Of a stretch of 45,958 bases of DNA, positions 8,985 through 39,543 are shown piece after piece; the first letter of the stretch is position 1, and each line of letters opens with the position of its first letter. The notes under the pieces were generated by a model, which was not told where the DNA came from, did no database searches, and worked only from the letters and a program-made list of their open reading frames with translations. The position numbers and the translations under genes were made by a program. This stretch comes from a virus. Location: positions 1-45,958 of the IMG/VR virus record IMGVR_UViG_3300035699_000198. The stretch is one strand, 5' to 3'.

Positions 8985-9329
8985 TCAGTTCGCCTGATTG
9001 CTGTCTCGCATCTGCTGCTCAATGTCTGAAATTGTTTGTGCGGCAGGTGAGTGCAGGTACAAACGACAGCCAAAAAACGGTAGTGCAAGCGCATAAAGAA
9101 CGAGCAACGGGGATAGGATCAGATGCAGCAGAGCGACAGTCACCGCCGATAACTTCGCCAGTATGCTGCTCGCTTCAAAATGAAACAGCATGCTCCAAAC
9201 GGGTGACAAAAATATTGTCGGGTAGGCCACCAACAAGCTGAAGGCGTACAGCATATTCTTCTTGAAGCCGGGAAACACGACTGGCTTGTAAATTTCCAGC
9301 ATTGCTGTTAATGATCGGGACAAACTCAT
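8985..9329 (-). CDS. Small integral membrane protein, 114 aa
   Basis: Two or three hydrophobic segments are visible: ~27-47 (MLYAFSLLVAYPTIFLSPVW) and ~56-85 (two possible passes: AVTVALLHLILSPLLVLYALALPFF). The C-terminus is polar. Function unknown. Its ATG overlaps the stop of the candidate outer-membrane barrel gene (ATGA), suggesting an envelope-related pair. The 102 bp between this stop and the next upstream gene start (8882) hold only leader-like sequence. Confidence 0.6.
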   Translation of the reverse strand: MSLSRSLTAMLEIYKPVVFPGFKKNMLYAFSLLVAYPTIFLSPVWSMLFHFEASSILAKLSAVTVALLHLILSPLLVLYALALPFFGCRLYLHSPAAQTISDIEQQMRDSNQAN

Positions 9330-9796
9330 AGGTCAAACTCCCATCGCAAACTCAGTGCGACATAGTGAGGGGTGATTAAAAGCCCGGGTTGGGCCGTGTA
9401 TTGATCGTAGTACAAGCCGCCAATGACGTAAGGACAAATGCGCTTGCTTTCTTGTCTGGCGTTTTGTCTGACACCCTTGAGACAGTCTGTGTAGCCGTAG
9501 TTGATACCACCACTCAGGACTGCCGTAACATTTTGCAAAGCTGGCCTTTCCCAAATTCCTCCCACTAAGACCGTATCCCGGTAGTATGAATTTTCGAAGT
9601 AACCCGCGTAGAGCCAGTCATACTGCAAGGCGATCAGGCGGTGATCACTGTTGAAGTTATCTTCATCGGGCTCTGGCTCGACAAAGTGCTGCGAGACTGC
9701 GCCGGTGTAGAGCTTCACGTCATCTGCACTCGACAAACGACAGTAGAGCACGGTGATCATGGCGGTAATAACCAGGCAGCAATTCGCCCACTGCAA
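9326..9796 (-). CDS. Exported protein, candidate outer-membrane beta-barrel
   Basis: A 156-aa protein with a signal peptide (~1-24, CLVITAMITVLYC, cleavage near LSSA-DD) and a mature part dominated by alternating hydrophobic/aromatic strands (YDWLYAGYFENSYYRD, INYGYTDC, PYVIGGLYYDQY, HYVALSLRWEFDL), as in small outer-membrane barrels such as lipid A-modifying enzymes. No catalytic triad could be assigned. Start TTG at 9796 has AGGGAG nearby; an ATG 12 codons downstream lacks a clear Shine-Dalgarno but is possible. A phage-encoded envelope modifier or superinfection-exclusion protein is plausible, but unproven. Confidence 0.5.
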   Translation of the reverse strand: MQWANCCLVITAMITVLYCRLSSADDVKLYTGAVSQHFVEPEPDEDNFNSDHRLIALQYDWLYAGYFENSYYRDTVLVGGIWERPALQNVTAVLSGGINYGYTDCLKGVRQNARQESKRICPYVIGGLYYDQYTAQPGLLITPHYVALSLRWEFDL

Positions 9797-16172: not shown

Positions 16173-18278
16173 TTAAGCGTGACAAGCCGTGCATTCACCG
16201 CTAGATGCTCGCACATTACTCATCGATCGCAGGTAATAAAGCCCCTTGATTACCGGACTCTTTAGCGCCTGCTGGTGAATCCGGGCAATGTATTCCTCGC
16301 TTTCCTCGGCTGAGAAAAACAGATTCAATGATTGACCCTGACAAATGTGCTTCTGACGCGCCTCTGCCAGACGGATCAAATCCGCTTGATTGATTTCATG
16401 CGCCGTCAGGTAGATCAGCTTTTCATACGCTGTGAGCCAGTCTTCACCCTGAACGCTACCCACGTTATTCACCATGCGCCGGATCGTCTCGTCATTATAG
16501 ACGCCCTCGCGCTTCATGATTTCCACAAGCTGCGGATTCACCCGCTTAATTTCGCCCACCGCAGAATTCTGATTGTAGGCGTTGGCAACGATGGGCTCGA
16601 TGCCCTGACTATTGCCACCACAAATGACAGACGTGCTCATCGTCGGAGCGAGGGCAGTTCGATGGGTATTGCGTACGCCATAGCCTTTACACCACGCGGG
16701 CTCTCCCAGGTGGCCTGCCATCCACTTCGAGGCCCTGAGTGACTCATCATGCAAGTGCTTAAAGATCGTGTTGTTAAGCAGGTGCGCTTGAAAATCACCA
16801 AAGGGAATACCCTCTTGCTGCAGTAGCGAGTGAAAGCCCAACACACCCAAGCCCAGTGCCCTGCCCTTTTCGGTAAAGCGCACGGCGCGGTGCAGCGCCG
16901 GTATTTCGCGAGCTCGCTCGATGAACTCCTGCGCCACGCAATCCAGAAAAACCGTGGACCAGAATACCGCATTGGTGCCTTCCCACTCGTCCCACTTGGA
17001 CAGATTCATGGAGGACAACACGCATGTAAAGGAATGGTCTTGATCAGAGAACAGGGTGATTTCATCGCACTGACCGGTCAGGATGCCATTAAAGACGCCC
17101 AAGTGACGCTTGCGCTCGGTAAAGCAGTAGGTGTCGTCCCGGCGGCCCTCATCAACAATCGCCTTAATGGTCATCGTAACCACCGATTGATTGTCGGGCA
17201 GACTTTCAGGCTGAATAAGGCGATCGCCCGGTAGCAGGTCCATCGCCCGCCTTTTCACGGTGTCACCGTTGTCATCAATAATGTAGAACTTGTGCCGGGG
17301 TGTGCAATCCAGCGAGTGACCGGTGTCGGTTTTGACCCTGATCAACGGCTGATTAGCGCCGGTCTTCTTGATTGTGACCGTGCTCCACTCAGAGCCATTC
17401 CAAACCTTGACTCTTTTGTTGTTCAAGTCGGCAATCGGCATGGAGCCGTGGTTGGTCAAGATCGTGGTTTCTGGAGCCACGCACAAATTGGACGATTTTA
17501 CTGTCAAGCCCAAATCTTTGTACATTGAAGGCGACAGACGATTGATCGTGTCCAGCTTGCACAGGTAGCCCTTGCCCGTCACCGCGCGAATCTTGAGCAC
17601 CCGGTGCCAGCGTTTGTGCGCTTCTTCATCGCCCGCATCCAAACGCTTTATAAAGCTGTTGTGAATGTTCCAACCCAGGTTGAGATCATCCGGGTTGTTG
17701 AACAGGTAATCCGCCACTTCCCAGAAGTCACCATGCTCGATGTTAAGATAACCGGCCCAGGCACCGCGACGATTGTTACCCTGACTAACGTCACGGCTAA
17801 GCTGCACATAATCCTTTAGCACCGGTAGCACGCCGCTGGCCGTACCGCCGGTAGAGATTGGCGCACCGCGAGGGCGAATCTTTGATAGGTCTGCCGAGGT
17901 GCCAAAGCCGTGCTTGGTGAGTGCCGCGGTTTCTGCCTGTGTGGTGTAGAAATCGGTCACGTCGTCCTGAATTTCAGCCCCGCTGCAACTCACCGGCATG
18001 CCGCGATTGGTGCCCATGTTCACCAGTACCGGCGTTGCCGGCGATAGCCAGCCTTTCCACATAATGTCGAAAAAGCGCTCTGCCCATAGAGCGCGATAGG
18101 GCAGGTGCTGTGCGGCTGTCACCGCCACGCGCTCGTACATGCGCTTGACCGTTTCCCCGGGTAGCAGGTACTTGCCCTTGACCATCTGCCAGCCGCCTGT
18201 GGTGTACCAGTCCGGTATGGTGCCTTCAGCCTGCCCGTCTTTGCGCTCCTGACTCAACTTCTCGTACATTTCACTCAC
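16173..18278 (-). CDS. nrdA: Ribonucleotide reductase large subunit, intein-containing
   Basis: Class I NrdA, which reduces ribonucleotides to deoxyribonucleotides with NrdB. The 701-residue precursor carries a 138-aa mini-intein (residues 266-403). After removal the extein is 563 aa and reads SSNL-C404-DE, restoring the thiyl-radical loop (NLCxE); partner cysteines are C98 (PVSCSG) and C419 (SFTCVLSS). PTMSTSVICGGNSQGIEP is the phosphate-binding region, and C696-x-x-C699 is the C-terminal redox pair. There is no N-terminal ATP-cone, so dATP feedback control is probably absent. Start GTG at 18278 (GGGAGA 7 nt upstream) overlaps the nrdB stop by 8 bp. Confidence 0.96.
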   Translation of the reverse strand: MSEMYEKLSQERKDGQAEGTIPDWYTTGGWQMVKGKYLLPGETVKRMYERVAVTAAQHLPYRALWAERFFDIMWKGWLSPATPVLVNMGTNRGMPVSCSGAEIQDDVTDFYTTQAETAALTKHGFGTSADLSKIRPRGAPISTGGTASGVLPVLKDYVQLSRDVSQGNNRRGAWAGYLNIEHGDFWEVADYLFNNPDDLNLGWNIHNSFIKRLDAGDEEAHKRWHRVLKIRAVTGKGYLCKLDTINRLSPSMYKDLGLTVKSSNLCVAPETTILTNHGSMPIADLNNKRVKVWNGSEWSTVTIKKTGANQPLIRVKTDTGHSLDCTPRHKFYIIDDNGDTVKRRAMDLLPGDRLIQPESLPDNQSVVTMTIKAIVDEGRRDDTYCFTERKRHLGVFNGILTGQCDEITLFSDQDHSFTCVLSSMNLSKWDEWEGTNAVFWSTVFLDCVAQEFIERAREIPALHRAVRFTEKGRALGLGVLGFHSLLQQEGIPFGDFQAHLLNNTIFKHLHDESLRASKWMAGHLGEPAWCKGYGVRNTHRTALAPTMSTSVICGGNSQGIEPIVANAYNQNSAVGEIKRVNPQLVEIMKREGVYNDETIRRMVNNVGSVQGEDWLTAYEKLIYLTAHEINQADLIRLAEARQKHICQGQSLNLFFSAEESEEYIARIHQQALKSPVIKGLYYLRSMSNVRASSGECTACHA
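17070..17483 (-). other. Mini-intein coding segment in nrdA
   Basis: Encodes 138 residues with splicing blocks but no homing endonuclease. Block A begins with Cys1 (CVAPETTILTNHG), block B has TDTGHSLDCTPRHKF with its conserved Thr and His, and blocks F/G end DTYCFTE...HLGVFNGILTGQ followed by extein Cys. The last residue is Gln rather than Asn and the penultimate is Gly rather than His. Functional Gln-terminal inteins are known, including one in an iridovirus ribonucleotide reductase. The +1 nucleophile is the catalytic cysteine C404 of NrdA itself. Confidence 0.93.
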
Positions 18279-19278
18279 TTGCTATCTCCCATGTAAAACG
18301 GTTTTCCGCCCAGTCACGCATGTACTCCGAACCGGTGCCGGTAAAGAAGTCGTGAAACTGGACAGCATTAATCGAGTCGTAGAACCACTCAGCGACCGGG
18401 TTTTCTTTCACCGTAAACAGCGCCTCAATGCCGAGATTGCTCAGACAAATATTGAGGCGAGAGGCGACGAAGGTGCGCAGATCAATAGCCTTGATGCCTT
18501 CGATTTCACCCTTGGCAAAGATCAGATCGATGATGCGGCACTCATGCTGGTAGATGGCCACCGCCGCCGATTCAATATCCCCGTTGAGGTAATCCAAGTA
18601 ACCACCGGCGTCCTGGTACTCCTGACGCAGCGTGCGATACAGCCAGGCACCGGCCTCACAGTGCAGATTCTCGTCACGCACTGAAAAATTGATGCCACGC
18701 ACCACATTGACCAGCATGTTTTTACCCGCGGTCTGAAAGTGCTTGAGAAACGCAAAGCTGGAATACAGCACGGCGCCTTCCATCATGGAAAACACCGCCA
18801 GTGACTTCAGCAAGTCCTTGGAGGCCACGTACTGCTCCAAAAAGTCCATCCGATCGGCGAGCGCCGAGTCATCCTGCCACGAGTTGTAGAACTCCGGTGT
18901 GTTGATCATCATGGCTTCGTTGATCTGGTTGTAGAACGGGGCATGGACGTTCAACTCGAAAAACGAAAAGCAGTTGGCCATGCGTTGTACATCGGCCGGA
19001 TGCTTGAAATTCTTGAACACCTTTTGTGTCCAGTATTCCGCGCCAATTTCTACTTCGTACTGCGTAAACAGCTTGAGCACGGTCAGCACGGCATGATTCT
19101 CAGCGTCGGTCATGTTGACGCGCAAATCCTGAATGTCCTTTTCGACTTGAATCTCGGTATCGAGCCAGAAAATTTCATTTTGCGCTTTGGCGTAAGCCAG
19201 TGCAGTGGGGTATTCGACGGTGTATTCGGTCTTGCGTTGAAGCAGCCGAGGGAGTTCGCGCACAGATGATTCGGGCAC
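18271..19278 (-). CDS. nrdB: Ribonucleotide reductase small subunit
   Basis: Class I NrdB, which carries the metal-tyrosyl cofactor for NrdA. Visible ligand positions in the 335-aa product are E81 (IGAEYWTQ), E108 and H112 (FFELNVHAPFY), E167 (SMMEGAVLYSSF), E203 and H206 (RDENLHCEAG), with the radical tyrosine at Y116, four residues after the His. Note the spacing ELNVH (E-x3-H) rather than the usual E-x2-H. The GTG at 19278 has GAGGA 7 nt upstream; the longer TTG frame at 19317 has no Shine-Dalgarno. Forms the operon nrdB-nrdA. Confidence 0.95.
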   Translation of the reverse strand: MPESSVRELPRLLQRKTEYTVEYPTALAYAKAQNEIFWLDTEIQVEKDIQDLRVNMTDAENHAVLTVLKLFTQYEVEIGAEYWTQKVFKNFKHPADVQRMANCFSFFELNVHAPFYNQINEAMMINTPEFYNSWQDDSALADRMDFLEQYVASKDLLKSLAVFSMMEGAVLYSSFAFLKHFQTAGKNMLVNVVRGINFSVRDENLHCEAGAWLYRTLRQEYQDAGGYLDYLNGDIESAAVAIYQHECRIIDLIFAKGEIEGIKAIDLRTFVASRLNICLSNLGIEALFTVKENPVAEWFYDSINAVQFHDFFTGTGSEYMRDWAENRFTWEIASE

Positions 19279-19332
19279 GGAAAAGTCCTCTATCTGGTGT
19301 CTTGGGGGAACGTTCAATACTATATATCGAAA

Positions 19333-28907: not shown

Positions 28908-31900
28908 TTATGCAATAACCTCAGCGGCTGTTGCGACGATCTCGTTCAACATGGATTGCTTGTCCGAATCCATCACCACCATCATCGGGTTCAAGCCGAT
29001 CAAAATGGTGGCGTCAAGCTCCGGGTCGTACACATCTTGCCCGAAGATTTCCTCCCAGCCGCCTTTCAAGTCAGGACACAGGTGACGCGACACGCGGCTG
29101 CCCAGTGCCAGTATCACTGCCGGCTTGAGTAATTCGATTTCCTTGCGCAAGTAAGGCGAGCAGTTGTTGATCATATCGTTCTGAATGTCAGCGCCCTTCA
29201 CCTTCGCCTTGATCATACTGGTCACATACACGTCTTTCATGGTGAGCCCGGCTTCTCTAAGCGCTTGCTTCAGTGGCTCGGCGCACTCACCTTCCCCAAT
29301 CTTGCCCGATTGTTCTTCACTCCAGTTCACCGCATCCGTGACCACCATCACCTTGGGACTGCGCCCGAGTCGTGGTATCGGGTGTGACTGGTCTTTCAGT
29401 GAGCAGCCGGTGCATTCCCTGCACTGTGATACCAGCTTGGTGATCTCCGACTTGACGAACGGGCTAATGTCGATCTTGCGATCAGCTTTTACCGTTGCAC
29501 TGACCAAGCCCTTGAGCAGTTGCTTTTGATCCTTGATGCGATCCGGGTGACGCGCCGGCAGCTGACCTTCCTCGATAGCACCAAACGCACCCACCAGATC
29601 AAGACGCTCTTGCTGGCGCACATTGCAGGTACGCCGGTGTACTGTTTTGATAAACGCCTGTTTGGATTCAAACGGCTTACCGTACCTGTGCTTCGCCTCC
29701 ATGATCGCGGCAGCCGACTTCTCCGACAGCCCATTGATCGCCTGAAACGGGGCAAACAGCAGCGTCTCGCCATCGTGACCGGTGCCAATCTCAAAGCGAT
29801 TCGAGGACTTGTTAATATCAGGTGGGGCGACCTCGATGCCCTTTTTCACGCAGTCTCTGAGTAGCGACTTGCGACGATCCTCATCAGCAATGGTCAGGGT
29901 GGCAGCGAAGAACTCTGCCGGGTAGTACGTCTTGAACCACATGCTCCAGTAGGAGATCACCGTGTAGGCGGTGGCGTGCGACTTGTTAAAGGCGTAGCCC
30001 GCGAATTCTTCAATCTGATCGAACAGCTGCGCGGCAGTTTGAGCGTGAATAGATGACGTGCTTACTGCGCCATTAACAAACGCATCACGCATGGTTTTCA
30101 TTTTTTCCACGTCTTTCTTGCCCATAGCGCTGCGCAGCTTGTCGGCTTCTGCCATTGTGAAGCCGGCTAAGTCTCGCGCCACCTGCATGATTTGTTCCTG
30201 AAAAACGATAACCGAGTGCGTTTCTTTCAGCGCCGACTCCATACTCGGATGCAGGTAGCTGGGATGCTGATTGCCCTGCTTGATCGCCACATAATCATCC
30301 ATCAGCCCGGCTTCCATCGGTCCTGGACGATAGAGTGCGGTGGCCGCCACCACGTCATCAAACGTCATTGTTTGCTCTTGTCCTATATTTTTCAATAGGT
30401 TACGTATTCCGCCTGATTCAAATTGAAAGGCTCCTGCGGTATCACCGACGCTAAAGCGCTCCAACACGCGCTTATCGTCCAATGCAACATCAGTCAAGTT
30501 TATTGTTTTGCCGTGTCGCTCTTTCACGTATTGCTTTGCGAGTGCCAGTACGTCGAGCGTCGAAAGCCCCAGTACGTCGAGCTTGATCAGTCCAAAGTCT
30601 TCCACCAGGCGCTTGTCCCAATTGACCACCCGATCCTTTTTGCGTCTCTCCAGCGCCGCTCGCTCTGCAATGGGTTCGCCTGCGACAATCACACCGGCTG
30701 CGTGTTGCGCCAGGTTACGCATGACACCTTGCAACTCAATGGCTTTTTCCCAAACGTCCGGGTACTTGCTCGCGAATGCTTCCAACTCGGCTACGTCTTC
30801 AACGCAGTCCTGCAAGGGGATCGACGTACCGTGTTCGTCCGGTATCAGCTTGGAGCACTTATACTCACTCTCATGCAAGCCATACGCCTTCGCAGCGCCA
30901 CGCAATGCGGATGCCGGCCCCAGTTTGGAGTAGTTGCTGATGCCGGCGACACGATCATCGCCGTAGACTTCGATCAGGTGTTCGATAATCTCATGCCGCC
31001 TGGAACTCATGAAGTCCAAGTCAATGTCAGGCAAGTCCAGGCGCTCCGGGTTGATGAAGCGCTCGAAGATCAAGCCGAAGCGCAGCGGGTCAACATCGGT
31101 AATACCAATGAGGTACGCAATCAGTGAGCCACCGCTACTACCGCGTCCCGGGCCGACTGTGAGATCGTTTTCCTTGCACCAGTTGGTGACTTCATGCACC
31201 AGCAAAAAGTAATCGCAAAAGCCCATCTTGCGCAGCACACCCAGCTCATAAGCAAGGCGCGACTTGTACTCCTTGAGCTTCGACTTTTCCGGCGTGTATC
31301 CCATCACCGGCTTGTCGATGCGATTGCGCCAGCCATCCTTGCACAGCTGCACCAGCGTCTTGAATGGATCGTCTGCCATATTGGGCAGGCACACGTCGTA
31401 CTTTTCCCATTGGTATTGGCACAAATCAGTGAAAGCTCTAACGCCTTCACTAAGCGGCTTTGACTCGTTGAGATCATCAGCACTGAGAAAGTGATACCCG
31501 GGTGGCACCTTGTTGAGCCACGGTGTGTCGATGGTCGCGCGAGGACTAAAAACGATTTCCATCGTGTCACGTACCGCGCTTTTCTCCGGGTCGTGCAATA
31601 CCGGCAGCGCCGGGATTGTATGGAGATCGTATTCTTCTGCCAATTCACTCGCTACTTGATTGACGCGATTGAAATACAAAGTATCGACTGCGACGTAATC
31701 CACGAAAAGCCGCTCTGTGTCGATCTCTGTGAGCGTTTTTAAGCGATCACCTGCATTGCTATGACTCATCAGCGAATGCACCGTGCCCGTACTCACAGCG
31801 ACGTTCCCGAGACGGTACGCAACGCACAATTGATCAAAGTCGATTTGCGGGGTGAAGTAGAAATTATCCTCACTGTTGGCAAGACTCAACAGCTTCATCA

Positions 31901-32210
31901 TATCCGTGAAGCCCTGCTTGTTGATGGCATACACCGATGCGTAGAAAAATGGATTCTTGGTTTTGGGGTCGCCCTTCTTGGGCTTACGCCAGTGCAGATC
32001 GTCAACCACCTTGATACTCATACCGGCGATCACGCGAACGCCCTTGTCTCTGCCTTCGGTAGTCAGCGCCGGTATCGCATTGACGGTATTCGTATCAGTG
32101 ACGGCAATGGTGTCAAAGCCAAACTCAATCGCCTGACTGATAATCGTCTTGGGCGACAGAATGCTCTCGGTCATGGAAAAGCTGGTGCGCACACCGGTCA
32201 GAAAATGCAT
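28908..32210 (-). CDS. dnaE: DNA polymerase III alpha (DnaE-type) fused to UDG-like domain
   Basis: A 1100-aa C-family replicative polymerase. PHP-like residues ~1-240 lack the metal-binding His pair (FLTGVRTSFS replaces HLRVHSDYS), so PHP activity is unlikely. The palm has GPGRGSSGGSLIAYL (353-367), D395-D397-D399 in PDIDLDF and D545 in IKLDVLGL; fingers follow (~590-770) and an HhH-like segment ~868-885. The usual OB and tau-binding C-terminus is missing; residues ~920-1100 resemble family-4 uracil-DNA glycosylases with cysteines C930, C933, C936 and C1017 and VILALGS. The UDG motifs are altered (TDAVN for GEAPG; NPMMV for HPxxL). Confidence 0.95.
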   Translation of the reverse strand: MHFLTGVRTSFSMTESILSPKTIISQAIEFGFDTIAVTDTNTVNAIPALTTEGRDKGVRVIAGMSIKVVDDLHWRKPKKGDPKTKNPFFYASVYAINKQGFTDMMKLLSLANSEDNFYFTPQIDFDQLCVAYRLGNVAVSTGTVHSLMSHSNAGDRLKTLTEIDTERLFVDYVAVDTLYFNRVNQVASELAEEYDLHTIPALPVLHDPEKSAVRDTMEIVFSPRATIDTPWLNKVPPGYHFLSADDLNESKPLSEGVRAFTDLCQYQWEKYDVCLPNMADDPFKTLVQLCKDGWRNRIDKPVMGYTPEKSKLKEYKSRLAYELGVLRKMGFCDYFLLVHEVTNWCKENDLTVGPGRGSSGGSLIAYLIGITDVDPLRFGLIFERFINPERLDLPDIDLDFMSSRRHEIIEHLIEVYGDDRVAGISNYSKLGPASALRGAAKAYGLHESEYKCSKLIPDEHGTSIPLQDCVEDVAELEAFASKYPDVWEKAIELQGVMRNLAQHAAGVIVAGEPIAERAALERRKKDRVVNWDKRLVEDFGLIKLDVLGLSTLDVLALAKQYVKERHGKTINLTDVALDDKRVLERFSVGDTAGAFQFESGGIRNLLKNIGQEQTMTFDDVVAATALYRPGPMEAGLMDDYVAIKQGNQHPSYLHPSMESALKETHSVIVFQEQIMQVARDLAGFTMAEADKLRSAMGKKDVEKMKTMRDAFVNGAVSTSSIHAQTAAQLFDQIEEFAGYAFNKSHATAYTVISYWSMWFKTYYPAEFFAATLTIADEDRRKSLLRDCVKKGIEVAPPDINKSSNRFEIGTGHDGETLLFAPFQAINGLSEKSAAAIMEAKHRYGKPFESKQAFIKTVHRRTCNVRQQERLDLVGAFGAIEEGQLPARHPDRIKDQKQLLKGLVSATVKADRKIDISPFVKSEITKLVSQCRECTGCSLKDQSHPIPRLGRSPKVMVVTDAVNWSEEQSGKIGEGECAEPLKQALREAGLTMKDVYVTSMIKAKVKGADIQNDMINNCSPYLRKEIELLKPAVILALGSRVSRHLCPDLKGGWEEIFGQDVYDPELDATILIGLNPMMVVMDSDKQSMLNEIVATAAEVIA

Positions 32211-32803: not shown

Positions 32804-33317
32804 ACAGTTTAGCCTTTGTCAAGATTTCCCGGTATGCCGCGTCTAGCGCATCTGCGGCGTACCCTTGTTCTTTTAAATAGTGAATCAGCGCCATGAGAGA
32901 GTTTCTGCGCCCCACGGTGCGCAAGGCGATAGCGCTCTGTAATGGCCTGGAAGGCATGAGCCAGGCATTGATTACTCGTTGAGCCGGCTTCGACAGTGAG
33001 CGCTTAAAGCCCCACAAGTTGAAATCATCATGCTGGTACAGCTCGAACTGCGATAAATCAATGCCGCCAATCTCATGCTGATTTTGATAAATGGCATAAT
33101 CAACGCGGAGATTCATTGCGCGCTGCAAAGCCCGATAAAGGTACGTTGATGCCTTGCCCTTCTGCGCATCAAATGTGCGCTGCGCCTTTGTCGCAATCTC
33201 ACTAGCGTCTTGAATAAGATCATCCATATCCAGAGTAACGCCGGCTGCTTTGGATCGACCACCCACCTTATGGGCGATCGAGATAATCATGCCTCTGTGC
33301 TCGATCGCCCAATCCAT
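32793..33317 (-). CDS. Sigma-70 region 2-like protein
   Basis: A 174-aa protein whose N-terminal ~70 residues match sigma region 2 in pattern: HRGMIISIAHKVGG, then DDLIQDASEIATKAQRTFD and KGKASTYLYRALQRAMN (core-binding and -10 recognition helices). The C-terminal half is helical (SKPAQRVINAWLM, ALRTVGRRNSLMALIHYL) and could be a divergent region 4. It may direct host RNA polymerase to phage promoters. ATG overlaps the stop of the CobS-like gene by one base (TAATG). Confidence 0.6.
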   Translation of the reverse strand: MDWAIEHRGMIISIAHKVGGRSKAAGVTLDMDDLIQDASEIATKAQRTFDAQKGKASTYLYRALQRAMNLRVDYAIYQNQHEIGGIDLSQFELYQHDDFNLWGFKRSLSKPAQRVINAWLMPSRPLQSAIALRTVGRRNSLMALIHYLKEQGYAADALDAAYREILTKAKLYES

Positions 33318-34522
33318 TACCCTAAAATCCTTGATGCCAAATCCATAGCAGCCTTGCGCTCCGCTTCGGGGAGTCGATTGGCATACGCCAGTTTGACACC
33401 CTGCGAAAAGTTGCCCTTCAAGCGACCCAGGCGACCGATCTTGATCAGCACGCGCGGGCCGATGGTGAGTGGAAATTCATGGGGAAACTGATTGCGAATC
33501 TTATCTGCGAAGCTCCACAGTTTTTCGGCGTGAGCGGCAGAAACCTGCGCCTTCTCTTTGAGCATGGCGACTTCATCGCTTTTATCGAGATAGCCCAGCT
33601 GCATCACAATGGAAAAGCGCTCGAAAGTGGCTGCGTCTTGACGCTGCACAGCGCGATGAATACCGGTCTCATCACCCATGCCATTTGAGTTACCCGTCGC
33701 CACAAAGCGAAAGTCGGGGTGTGGCGTGATCAAGCGATTGTCTTCGTCAGCTTCTGGCAGATGCAAAGGCTGCCCTTCAAGCACAGACTGGTACGCTGAC
33801 AGCACTTCAGGCTGCGCTCTGTCGATTTCATCAGCCAGGTAAATCCAGCCGTTTTTCATCGCCAGTGGCAGATCACCCACTTGAAACTCGGTATAGCTAT
33901 ACGCCTTGCCCGTCTCGTCGAAACCCTTGCTGACTTGCATCTGTCCGAGAATCTTGTGCTCTTGCGTCTCGGCGGTATGCTGAACACGTACCAGACGACG
34001 ATTGGTGCCGCGAGCGACAAAACGAAAGATTGAGGTTTTGCCGACCCCAGCGTGACCGTAGAGCATGATCGGTTCATTAAACTCCAGTGCCAGCATGACA
34101 TTCTTGAGCGCTTCAATATCGGGGTAGTATTCTTCATACGCCGGTACGCGATCCGCGCTATCTTCACGCAGTGAGACGGAGACTTCGGGCTGTTTGCCTG
34201 AGCCTGTCATCGTGCGCTTCTTGTCGAGACTAAAAACCTCATACATGGGTTTTTTGATATAGCCTCCTTTGGAGACGTTTTGAGATTCAGGCTTGGGTTC
34301 CTTCGGCTTGATGATTTCGCCCTGATCTTCTTCTAACTTCTTCCTTTCGGCGAGCTTTTTCATCATCAGTTCGGAAAGCACCGGTGCGTCAGGAAATTGC
34401 GCCTGATACCCGTTTAGCGCCATAGGCTGAGCTGAGCTGACGCTGTGAGCTTCTTTCAGATGCGCCTTGATGGCGTGACACTTGACACCGCAAAGCCGGC
34501 ACTCAATCTGTTCCATGTTCAT
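33317..34522 (-). CDS. cobS: MoxR/CobS-like AAA+ ATPase with N-terminal zinc finger
   Basis: A 401-aa AAA+ protein with Walker A GHAGVGKT (156-163), Walker B WIYLADEID (226-234) and sensor-like FVATGNSNG. The N-terminus has a C2H2-like finger, C8-x2-C11 with H21-x4-H26 (CRLCGVKCHAIKAHLKEAH). Phages often carry this with a CobT-like VWA protein; the names come from cobaltochelatase, but the phage role is unknown and probably chaperone- or remodelling-like. The ATG at 34522 has AGGA 8 nt upstream; longer in-frame starts up to 34585 overlap the dyad. Confidence 0.85.
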   Translation of the reverse strand: MNMEQIECRLCGVKCHAIKAHLKEAHSVSSAQPMALNGYQAQFPDAPVLSELMMKKLAERKKLEEDQGEIIKPKEPKPESQNVSKGGYIKKPMYEVFSLDKKRTMTGSGKQPEVSVSLREDSADRVPAYEEYYPDIEALKNVMLALEFNEPIMLYGHAGVGKTSIFRFVARGTNRRLVRVQHTAETQEHKILGQMQVSKGFDETGKAYSYTEFQVGDLPLAMKNGWIYLADEIDRAQPEVLSAYQSVLEGQPLHLPEADEDNRLITPHPDFRFVATGNSNGMGDETGIHRAVQRQDAATFERFSIVMQLGYLDKSDEVAMLKEKAQVSAAHAEKLWSFADKIRNQFPHEFPLTIGPRVLIKIGRLGRLKGNFSQGVKLAYANRLPEAERKAAMDLASRILG

Positions 34523-34548
34523 AATGTTTCCTGCTTCTGATTTTTGAT

Positions 34549-34570
34549 TCATACTTACGATATAGTATGA
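34549..34570 (-). promoter_or_regulatory. 22-bp dyad operator TACT-N8-AGTA (site 12)
   Basis: Perfect 7-bp arms TCATACT and AGTATGA around TACGATAT, 27 bp upstream of the CobS-like start and 12 bp after the CobT-like stop. A -10-like TATGAA overlaps the gene-proximal arm on the minus strand. Confidence 0.7.
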
Positions 34571-34581
34571 GCAGCGGGCAA

Positions 34582-36429
34582 TCAAGACTCCAGCAAGGCA
34601 TCACGCACCTTGCCGATGACGGTACCCGCGAGATCATCCATTTCGTTCACCACCACATGCTTTGGGTAGTAGTTTTTGACGCTGCCCGTCTGAATGCCAA
34701 TGCCCATCACATTGATACCGGATTTCGTTATATCCTTGACGACTTGTTTCAAGTGGGCAGAGAAAGCATGGTGATCGCCGTCACCAGCAGGCTGACCATC
34801 AGATAGCACAATCATCGTCTTACCCGGTTCCCTCTGCTGCATCAATCTTAGCGCGGCATACTGCAGCGACTCGCCATCGACGTTGCCGCTCATCGGCAAG
34901 TCGCTGTCGCTCATGCGTGTAAAGTGGCGCTTGTGCATCTGCGTAAAGTGAGGCTCATCCCATGATTTGAGAATTGGCATGTAGATTGGCCCCATGCGTG
35001 TGAATGACGCCTTCTCTGCGTCTTTCTTTATGTGTTTGTAAGCCTCACCTGCGGGTTTGCCCCAGCCTAAGCCATGCTGTGTGAAGCCAATCACTTCATT
35101 TTTGATTTTCAGACGACCCAGCACCTCGCACAGCGCCCATGCGACTTGCGAAGCCAGCTTGATTCTGGAGCCTGACATAGAGCCTGAAATATCGACCACT
35201 AGCTGTACCGCCGAGTCTCGGGTTTTGATTTCTTTATTCTGGTAGTAAACCCGATCATCGTTGGACACCAGACGATGCAGACTAGGACCGGACAGTCTAC
35301 CGCTGCGCTTACCATGCACTTGAAAGTTACGATTTCTGGATTCAAACGCATTCGCCAGGGCGCGCTGAACCGGTGCGATTGTCTTGCGAATCTCTTTTTC
35401 CATCGCGTCCACCTGATCCGGGCTTACTGGGGTATCCTCCAGCGATTCAATAATGTCAGCGTCGCGAGTGTAAGGCAGGTATGAGCTGGCGTCGGTCGCT
35501 TTTTTAGCTTCCTCACTGATGACGTCATGCATGAAGTCTTCAACGCCTTTCATATCCTCATCGTTAAAATCTGGATCGGGTTTGGATTCTTCACCGGGTT
35601 GTGCCTCGCTTACCTCACTCTCGTCTTCGCCCTCACTCTCGTCTTCGCCCTCACTCTCGTCTTCGCCCTCGCTTTCACCCTTGCCTTCGCTCTCGTCTTC
35701 ACCTTCACTCTCGTCTTCACCCTCGTCCTTCTCTTTTTCCTCTTTTTCACCTTCCTCTGGTGGCTTATCAGCCTCCTTGACGATGTGAGAAATGCGAATG
35801 GCCGCCTTCAGTGATTCGTCGGTATTGGTAATCGCCCGTAAACGCTCTGGAATCTTTTTGTCGTTGGCAATTTTCGGAATCTCGCCCAATAATTCCCACT
35901 TATCATCCATATACAGACGAAACTCGGTATGACCCGCCCATGCCCTGATCGCGCAAACGCCCAGCAGACCCCACCAGGCTTTGGAATCGGTAACGCCAGA
36001 TTTTTTCGCCTGTTGCACCTTGGGCTCGATGAACTCATCAATAAACAGGTCGCGCATTTTGGCGACGTTGCTCTTGGTGCCCTCGTAAACCTCCCCCATC
36101 TTGCGCTCAATGAAGCTATCCTCCACTGCATTAAGCAACATGGGGATTTTCATTTTGATGCCTTCAGCGAGCGCGTCGAAGTCACTAAAGAGTACGTGCG
36201 CAACTTCGTGATCCACGAAACCCTGAATAGCGTCTATCAGCGTTTCAGAGGAATTATCCGGTAGCGACGGCAGGTAAATGCGAACAGGCTTGCCGGTCAG
36301 CGGATCGTATTCGACGCGCGCTTGAACGCCCGCCATGATAACCGGCAGCTTGGATTTGGTGAGTAGGCGTGTGACCTTGCGAATCGAGGTTCGCAGCACT
36401 TCCATTTTGGCAGCTTTGGTGAGAGACAT
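34582..36429 (-). CDS. cobT: CobT-like VWA-domain protein with HExxH motif
   Basis: A 615-aa protein. The C-terminal VWA domain (~405-615) has the MIDAS motif D413-I-S-G-S417 (VVDISGSMSG) and DGQPAGDGDHH later. The central ~225-290 is an acidic GEDESE repeat linker. The N-terminus contains H74-E-V-A-H78 (FVDHEVAHVLFSDF) followed by NAVEDSFIE at ~100-108, matching a gluzincin-type zinc site; whether it is catalytic is unknown. VWA proteins pair with MoxR-type ATPases like the adjacent CobS homologue. It carries its own dyad at 36454-36475, so the pair may be expressed from two linked promoters. Confidence 0.85.
   Translation of the reverse strand: MSLTKAAKMEVLRTSIRKVTRLLTKSKLPVIMAGVQARVEYDPLTGKPVRIYLPSLPDNSSETLIDAIQGFVDHEVAHVLFSDFDALAEGIKMKIPMLLNAVEDSFIERKMGEVYEGTKSNVAKMRDLFIDEFIEPKVQQAKKSGVTDSKAWWGLLGVCAIRAWAGHTEFRLYMDDKWELLGEIPKIANDKKIPERLRAITNTDESLKAAIRISHIVKEADKPPEEGEKEEKEKDEGEDESEGEDESEGKGESEGEDESEGEDESEGEDESEVSEAQPGEESKPDPDFNDEDMKGVEDFMHDVISEEAKKATDASSYLPYTRDADIIESLEDTPVSPDQVDAMEKEIRKTIAPVQRALANAFESRNRNFQVHGKRSGRLSGPSLHRLVSNDDRVYYQNKEIKTRDSAVQLVVDISGSMSGSRIKLASQVAWALCEVLGRLKIKNEVIGFTQHGLGWGKPAGEAYKHIKKDAEKASFTRMGPIYMPILKSWDEPHFTQMHKRHFTRMSDSDLPMSGNVDGESLQYAALRLMQQREPGKTMIVLSDGQPAGDGDHHAFSAHLKQVVKDITKSGINVMGIGIQTGSVKNYYPKHVVVNEMDDLAGTVIGKVRDALLES
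35631..35735. repeat. 18-bp tandem repeats encoding GEDESE linker
   Basis: Unit TCGTCTTCGCCCTCACTC (18 bp): two exact copies at 35631-35666, then diverged copies. It encodes the acidic linker of the CobT-like protein and can expand or contract in frame. Confidence 0.85.
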
Positions 36430-37429: not shown

Positions 37430-38578
37430 ATGAAGACCACTCCAACTCTCAGTATTACGAATCCCGCCTCCCTATTCGATGACTTCTCACAGCGTAGCCA
37501 AGACGAGCTGCTGAAAATCCGAGAAATCGTCAAGCAAGATACCGATTACATTCCCAAGAGCCCGCGTACCTGGGGCATTAAAGACACTGCTGCCCTGATT
37601 GGTCGCTCGATGCCCTGGTTGCGTGAGAGCGACCCCGGTGTGCCCCGCAACACACAGAATCATGGACGCTGGGACTTGCCGCGCATCAACAGACTTCGCG
37701 ATGAGATTGGCTCCCGAGTGCGCCGTCCCGATCACGTCAAGACGCCCATTGTGGCGTGTGTGAATTTTAAAGGCGGCGTGGGTAAGACGACCATCACGGC
37801 GCACCTGGCTCAAAAAGCGGCGATAGAAGGCTTGCGCGTGTTGGCGCTGGATATGGACCCCCAAGCCACCCTCACCTTCTTATTGGCGGGGCTGATCCCC
37901 GAAGTGGACCTTGACGAAAACGACCTGATCAACGACTACCTGCTGCAAGACGCGAACGGCTTTGATGCCATCATCAAGCCCACCTATTTTGAAGGCGTGG
38001 ATATTGTCCCGACCAGCCTGCCCCTGCAAGACCTCGACCTGACACTGCCCAACCCGGAGCTGAACAACCGCGACAACATGGGGAGTGCTGCGCTGCGTCT
38101 GCGCAATGTATTGGCGACCGTGCAGGATCGCTACGACCTCATCCTGATCGACTGCCCGCCGAACATGGGCTCGATTACCGCCAATGCGTTAGCGGCTGCC
38201 AATGGACTGCTCATCCCCCTACCCCCAGCGGCGGCTGATCGCGCCTCCTTTATGATGTTTTGCCAGAGCTTGTCGCTGTTTTACGACCAGCTGGGTCGTG
38301 AGCTTGATTTCATGCGTGTTTTGATTTCCAAGCATGACGGCTCGACCACGCACAAATTCAACGAAAGCCGTATCCGCGCTTTATATGGCGAATACGTGAT
38401 GGATAGCGTGCTGCCGGTTTCCACCGAAATCGACAAAGCGGCTGCTTACATGCGCACTGTCTACGAACTGGAAAAACCCATAAACAGCCGGGACACCTAC
38501 AAGCGAGCGCTGAATAGCCTGAATGCCATCTGCGAAGAAATTCTGACCGACATTAAACGCCAGTGGAGCAATGTATGA
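37430..38578 (+). CDS. parA: ParA partition ATPase (type Ia)
   Basis: A 382-aa ATPase for plasmid segregation. An N-terminal DNA-binding domain (~45-95; WGIKDTAALIGRSMPWLRES) precedes the deviant Walker A KGGVGKTT at 114-121, DMDPQ at 141-145 and LILIDCPP near 232-239. This N-terminal HTH is characteristic of type Ia ParA (P1 ParA, SopA), which repress their own operon. It overlaps parB by 4 bp (ATGA). Its presence says the element can exist as a stably inherited, low-copy replicon. Confidence 0.95.
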   Translation: MKTTPTLSITNPASLFDDFSQRSQDELLKIREIVKQDTDYIPKSPRTWGIKDTAALIGRSMPWLRESDPGVPRNTQNHGRWDLPRINRLRDEIGSRVRRPDHVKTPIVACVNFKGGVGKTTITAHLAQKAAIEGLRVLALDMDPQATLTFLLAGLIPEVDLDENDLINDYLLQDANGFDAIIKPTYFEGVDIVPTSLPLQDLDLTLPNPELNNRDNMGSAALRLRNVLATVQDRYDLILIDCPPNMGSITANALAAANGLLIPLPPAAADRASFMMFCQSLSLFYDQLGRELDFMRVLISKHDGSTTHKFNESRIRALYGEYVMDSVLPVSTEIDKAAAYMRTVYELEKPINSRDTYKRALNSLNAICEEILTDIKRQWSNV

Positions 38579-39543
38579 GCGACAAGCGACTCTCCGGTGC
38601 CTTCGGCATGCTCAGTGACGAACTCAACAAGCCCGATGCGGATACGCGCACACCTGCGACGACAAACAAACAACTCAGTAAGAAGCCAAAAGCAAAGCCC
38701 GTCGAGTCAGCCGGTGCTCGTCTGACACAGATTGATCCATTGAAAGTGCGCAGCTGGCTTTATAAAGATCGCGAAAAAGAAGACCTCAACGGTATCGACT
38801 TTGAAGACTTGATGCGCTCCATTGCCAATGAAGGACAGCACACGCCGATTCGTGTTCGCGAAATTGAGCACCCGGATTACAACTATGAGGAAATCTTTGG
38901 CTTTCGTCGTTTGCATGCCTGTTTAGCTTTGGGCATTAAGGTATTGGCTTTAATTGAGCCGATAAATGATGAAAAAGGATTTGTGGCTCAGATTACCGAG
39001 AATGATGATCGAACAGCACCTTCATTTTGGCGTCGGGCCAATACATTTAAAATGGCGATTGATAACTCGTTATTTGCCAGTGTTGAAGCCATGAGTATTA
39101 AAACGGGTATAGCGCGTTCGACAATTGCCAATTACATTCGCGTCGCACAATACATGCCTGAAATATTCAGAGACAAGGTACGTCTTCAAAATTGCAGACG
39201 CGATACGTTGTTTTATTTTATGGCGTTACAAGCGCATCCAGAACAAACCATTAAAGACTGGATTGAATCACCTAAAACAATCTGGATGCATACCAATCCG
39301 ATTCAAAAGAAAGAGGTTGAAAAATCTTTTAAGCAGTTTGTTAAAAGACTACCTGATAATGAAACGCAAAAGCCTGTCATAAAAAATGGAGCAAAGACTT
39401 ATATTGGAAAGGCAGGTAAACTTTTTTCAATTACTCGAAAGGGCGATCAGGTTTTTATCAATGTCTTGAAAGATGGCAAACGAATTATGACCGATTCTGA
39501 AATTGCAGACGTTTTACAAAAAGCGATGGACGAAAAGGGCTGA
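38575..39543 (+). CDS. parB: ParB centromere-binding protein
   Basis: A 322-aa ParB-family protein: N-terminal nuclease-like fold with FGFRRLHACLALGIKVLALI, central HTH (VEAMSIKTGIARSTIANYIRVAQY) and a C-terminal dimerisation region. ATG at 38575 has GGAG upstream. From about 38900 the gene becomes visibly more AT-rich than parA and the rest of the window, suggesting that the DNA-binding part and adjacent parS sites came from a different source by recombination. Confidence 0.93.
   Translation: MSDKRLSGAFGMLSDELNKPDADTRTPATTNKQLSKKPKAKPVESAGARLTQIDPLKVRSWLYKDREKEDLNGIDFEDLMRSIANEGQHTPIRVREIEHPDYNYEEIFGFRRLHACLALGIKVLALIEPINDEKGFVAQITENDDRTAPSFWRRANTFKMAIDNSLFASVEAMSIKTGIARSTIANYIRVAQYMPEIFRDKVRLQNCRRDTLFYFMALQAHPEQTIKDWIESPKTIWMHTNPIQKKEVEKSFKQFVKRLPDNETQKPVIKNGAKTYIGKAGKLFSITRKGDQVFINVLKDGKRIMTDSEIADVLQKAMDEKG

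Follow-up and report, generated by a model that had tools for sequence, protein, structure and literature searches.

A Gly-Gln-Ending Mini-Intein before the Active-Site Cysteine Codon of a Phage Class I Ribonucleotide Reductase Gene

The nrdA Gene and Its Neighborhood

The virus record analyzed here (IMGVR_UViG_3300035699_000198; 45,958 bases, hereafter the window) contains an nrdA gene at positions 16173–18278 of the minus strand, encoding the large subunit of a class I ribonucleotide reductase (RNR) as a 701-aa precursor with a GTG start and an intein inside. The assignment draws on Pfam, NCBIfam, and the PDB entries 6dqw and 6dqx; the ORF contains domains PF02867 (E 2.8e-72) and PF00317 (E 6.6e-14) in a Pfam scan, and it matches the NCBIfam model TIGR02510, NrdE-prime (E 2.5e-175). 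Directly upstream, with an 8-base overlap, lies nrdB (18271–19317, minus strand), encoding the RNR small subunit (PF00268, E 8.3e-43). NrdB reads FELNVHAPFY around the expected metal-ligand/tyrosine site, with a Glu-His spacing one residue longer than in the usual ExxH; since this spacing is common to relatives, such as FAMFELNIHAPFYNK, it looks like a subclass trait. One nrdA and no second copy was found within the 45,958 bases of the record, which may itself be a fragment.

According to profile searches, the region surrounding nrdA is made up of phage nucleotide-metabolism and replication genes. The former include those encoding thymidylate synthase, a dihydrofolate reductase-like protein, and MazG-like proteins, while replication and recombination are represented by a RuvC-like resolvase, SbcCD-like proteins, a UvsX-like recombinase, DNA polymerase III alpha, ligase, primase, and a DnaB-like helicase. 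The polymerase III alpha protein (28908–32210, minus strand) carries a C-terminal uracil-DNA-glycosylase-like domain (PF03167, residues 965–1053), and phrog_405 spans nearly all of it, so the fusion seems common to a phage family. Other genes of the window include two adjoining ones at 33317–36429 (minus strand), encoding an ATPase that matches phrog_249, annotated as porphyrin biosynthesis, and a second protein with weak PHROG matches annotated as cobalamin biosynthesis and as cobaltochelatase CobT. The product of 9326–9796 (minus strand) matches a PHROG annotated as lipid A acylation protein PagP. A ParA-like ATPase gene followed by a ParB-like gene (37430–39543, plus strand) runs against the direction of most genes and is likely a partition pair.

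Position and Identity of the Insert

The nrdA reading frame is interrupted, in frame, by a 138-aa insert (CVAPETTILT...GVFNGILTGQ) corresponding to residues 266–403 and mapping to 17070–17483 of the minus strand. It separates an N-extein of residues 1–265, ending in SSNL (17484–18278), from a C-extein of residues 404–701 plus the stop codon (16173–17069), both delimited by PDB alignments and intein-less relatives. An earlier note, made from the DNA letters, had placed a mini-intein without an endonuclease at these residues, exactly before the catalytic cysteine, and had predicted that its removal would restore NLC-DE; position, identity, and the missing endonuclease were all borne out. The NrdA sequence computed after splicing has 563 aa and reads VKSSNL/CDEITL at the junction (slash). 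In phmmer alignments, the end of the N-terminal part and the start of the C-terminal part meet at one target cysteine (Cys286 in 6dqw, Cys275 in 6dqx), so the junction has neither missing nor extra residues. The empty site is equally clean, as 78 of the 79 intein-less viral NrdA relatives covering it have the cysteine with no surrounding gap. This first C-extein residue, Cys+1 (17067–17069), is thus aligned with the conserved active-site cysteine, which by homology we take to be the thiyl-radical cysteine equivalent to C439 of E. coli. The spliced sequence keeps SNLCDE (Asn-x-Cys-x-Glu), VSCSG, FTCVLSS, and LYYLRS, in which the active-site cysteine, the redox cysteines, and the C-terminal Tyr-Tyr presumably have the roles assigned to them by homology to class I RNR. 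Judged by its sequence, the spliced protein would have the features of a class I large subunit with an intact active site.

The insert scores above the cut-offs of two intein profiles, just above that of Pfam Intein_splicing (PF14890; 36.3 bits, cut-off 35.8) and clearly above that of NCBIfam TIGR01445 for the intein N-terminal region (37.2 against 24.5). An AlphaFold2 model built with 23 homologous mini-inteins has a predicted Hint fold at a pLDDT of 97; VIA-align superimposes it on the Ssp DnaB intein (1mi8) with Z 19.4 and 2.0 Å rmsd over 127 residues, and Foldseek matches it to the SspDnaB M86, NpuDnaB, NrdJ-1, and Mtu RecA inteins. The residues expected of a class 1 intein are in place. 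Cys1 of block A (17481–17483), the predicted first splicing nucleophile, and Thr61 and His64 of the block B motif TPRH (Thr61-x-x-His64; 17292–17303), a predicted helper of the first step, are invariant in alignments A1 and A2. Block F has Cys120 at its position 4 in place of the commoner Asp (17124–17126), and the insert ends in GILTGQ, whose last residue, Gln138 (17070–17072), a recognized variant of the intein C-terminus, is predicted to cyclize and is followed by Cys+1. Across the 24 aligned mini-inteins of the family, Cys1, Thr61, His64, Cys120, and Gly137 are invariant. A Pfam scan found no endonuclease domain in the 138-aa insert, which therefore does not qualify as a homing intein, the latter carrying an endonuclease between blocks B and F. 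Taken together, sequence profiles and the modeled fold confirm the mini-intein reading of the insert far beyond chance. Third-position codon GC is 0.71 in the intein versus 0.68 and 0.63 in the exteins, and this closeness gives no sign of a very recent arrival.

The Intein Family at the NrdA Active-Site Cysteine

A tblastn search detected a related intein in 318 phage records. For a survey of the site, viral contigs and genome contigs were scanned, near-copies were removed, and only junctions with Cys+1 were kept; three loci (L143, L151, and L156), whose C-terminal junction was missed by the search pattern, are omitted. At least 87 non-redundant inteins occupy the active-site-cysteine site of NrdA, from phages and some bacterial contigs, and the phages include ICP1 and phages of Rheinheimera, Curvibacter, Aeromonas, Vibrio, Staphylococcus, Burkholderia, and Nitrincola. 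In the annotated phage nrdA genes, insertion is always at NL/C, but at QL/C in the Curvibacter phage. The window intein belongs with this same-site family by its insertion before the active-site cysteine and by the similarity of its splicing domain, which reaches up to 57% identity to those of other members; the searches turned up no relative above about 60% identity.

The earlier note had pointed to Gly-Gln, in place of the usual His-Asn, as a peculiarity of the window intein. The ending itself stands, and His-Asn is usual for inteins generally, but the ending is not unusual in this family. Gly-Gln is the commonest ending among the 87 members listed (59 members, against 27 with Gly-Asn and one with Met-Asn, a Gln:Asn ratio that may be biased because an alignment of mostly Gln-ending inteins served as the seed of the survey and at most 80 viral loci were taken), and a penultimate His occurs in none of the 87. 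For instance, GILTGQ/C is found in ICP1, helene 12B3, PG07, PhAER-4, P26059A, Barba1S, St1.CM, and 1M3-16, and GVVTGQ/C in FLC6, while 1.193.O, SelmaRatti, Herod, CcrPW, phiCbK, C3PO, and P1201 have Asn-ending inteins. Cys120 is likewise shared, with Cys at this position in 86 of the 87. As to length, 28 of the listed members are mini-inteins (131–159 aa) and 59 are longer (239–375 aa, mostly about 330). LAGLIDADG_3 was present in both long members scanned, those of the Vibrio phage ICP1 and the Curvibacter phage P26059A, and the length of the remaining long members suggests that they too encode an endonuclease. By sequence, the striking features of the window intein are thus the norm for the NrdA-site family, an intein type already known from dozens of phages.

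Several members of the survey deserve separate mention. L176 is an intein of intermediate length (239 aa) with a Gly-Gln end, its endonuclease perhaps partly deleted. The mini-inteins of L139 and L188, the latter on a Synergistaceae MAG contig, are preceded by NNP or TNP and not by NL before the cysteine. L101 and L183, with CVESYSN and CTESFSN after the site, were considered as class II NrdJ, an assignment rejected since class I alpha-subunit models score best.

The inteins nearest in site and ending are those of ICP1 (gp203), helene 12B3, PG07, PhAER-4, P26059A, and Barba1S, which share the insertion site and GILTGQ with the window intein and have splicing domains about 49–54% identical to it. 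However, they are 325–332 aa long with an endonuclease insert (LAGLIDADG confirmed in ICP1 and P26059A) that the window copy lacks. Descriptions of the ICP1 intein are given in PMC9040626 and PMC10448857, the latter counting at least eight LAGLIDADG endonucleases carried by inteins of phage nrdA genes. Nitrincola phage 1M3-16 and Burkholderia phage FLC6 carry mini-inteins (136 and 139 aa, respectively) that share the site, the Gly-Gln end, and the lack of an endonuclease with the window intein; these two inteins are just 40–43% identical to it, and on a poorly resolved branching order they apparently belong to other lineages. The RIR1 intein of Corynebacterium phage P1201 (159 aa) has the same insertion site, but it differs in its Gly-Asn end, its lack of the block F Cys, and its distant sequence; the P1201 RNR is reported in PMC3653736 to be experimentally active. 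Splicing has been demonstrated for the RNR intein of Chilo iridescent virus (PMC4031507), which, like the window intein, has a native C-terminal Gln and a viral RNR as its host protein. That virus is a eukaryotic one, unlike the window phage, and the comparison covers the Gln and the RNR host.

A tree of the splicing domains, based on 135 columns and poorly resolved, requires at least five changes between the mini and endonuclease-bearing states and at least 12 between Gln and Asn. The window intein is not firmly placed on it (nearest fork 88/68), and its lineage may have lost the endonuclease or may never have had one, as the tree fits both.

Proposed Splicing and Alternative Readings

We propose that the insert is a class 1 cis-splicing mini-intein, allelic at the active-site-cysteine position of phage class I NrdA. 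Cys1 would attack the peptide bond just before it in an N-S shift, the chain would be transferred to Cys+1, the future catalytic cysteine, Gln138 would cyclize and release the intein, and an S-N shift would restore a normal peptide bond, yielding intact NrdA of 563 aa. From the chemistry of the enzyme we soundly infer, as the earlier note did, that the intein-bearing precursor would be catalytically inactive. Since the window copy lacks an endonuclease, it would depend on vertical inheritance or ordinary recombination, and its retention may reflect how seldom an insert is lost precisely from an essential codon. We infer splicing, the step order, and the reason for retention; position, family, fold, motifs, and the missing endonuclease come from sequence or prediction. 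As a whole, the explanation as a self-excising class 1 mini-intein of a widespread, mostly Gly-Gln phage RNR family has, in our estimate, a probability of about 0.93.

Previous studies support, by analogy, each departure of the window intein from the textbook motif. In Chilo iridescent virus, the RNR intein splices better with its native Gln than with Asn; other Gln inteins also splice, though some, such as Pab and Mma PolII, can be slow; and inteins without a penultimate His can be functional (PMC4031507). As Gln inteins are sometimes slow, efficient splicing of the window intein is not guaranteed. It might even be degenerate or very slow, with partial splicing or cleavage giving a poorly active NrdA, as suggested by the slowing effect of a C-terminal Gln in some inteins, by the Pab PolII intein, which Asn speeds up (PMC4031507), and by the intein-bearing nrdA genes of Campylobacter phages, which appear to be degenerating (PMC3653736). 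However, the window intein has an unbroken reading frame and a full set of motif residues, Gly-Gln is the family norm across diverse phages, and both parts of NrdA match 6dqw and 6dqx over their length, so that we regard degeneration or very slow splicing as very improbable.

Least probable of all, and given hardly any credence here, is that Cys1, Cys60, Cys120, and Cys+1 tie splicing to redox state or to an effector and time NrdA activation during infection. Insertion silences exactly the catalytic residue, Cys120 is near invariant in the family, and precedents exist in disulfide or stress switches of inteins elsewhere (Nicastri 2013, as cited in PMC4031507) and in the M. smegmatis DnaB intein (PMC6195587), but selfish homing with purifying selection also predicts insertion at conserved active-site codons, and at block F position 4 Cys ranks second in frequency and is an ordinary choice (PMC4031507). 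In addition, the site holds endonuclease-bearing alleles in diverse phages and is empty in many relatives, which gives no sign of a required switch, and the passages searched in the phage RNR and intein literature yielded no claim of splicing-based regulation at this NrdA site. In A. aeolicus, the R2 intein is also inserted between residues that serve as metal ligands (PMC8772380). Insertion at the catalytic cysteine is adequately explained without regulation; a regulatory role is possible, yet it is highly unlikely that an endonuclease-free mini-intein has been kept on the radical cysteine as a switch that restricts the release of active NrdA to particular redox states or stages of infection.

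Under the preferred reading as an ordinary self-excising mini-intein, the window intein adds one clean, small member to the large phage RNR intein family. Its small size (138 aa), Gln end, and confidently predicted fold also make it a candidate tool for protein engineering. Since many inteins at this site end in Gly-Gln or lack an endonuclease, the family offers a natural set for studying shifts between Gln and Asn and between endonuclease-bearing and mini-inteins.
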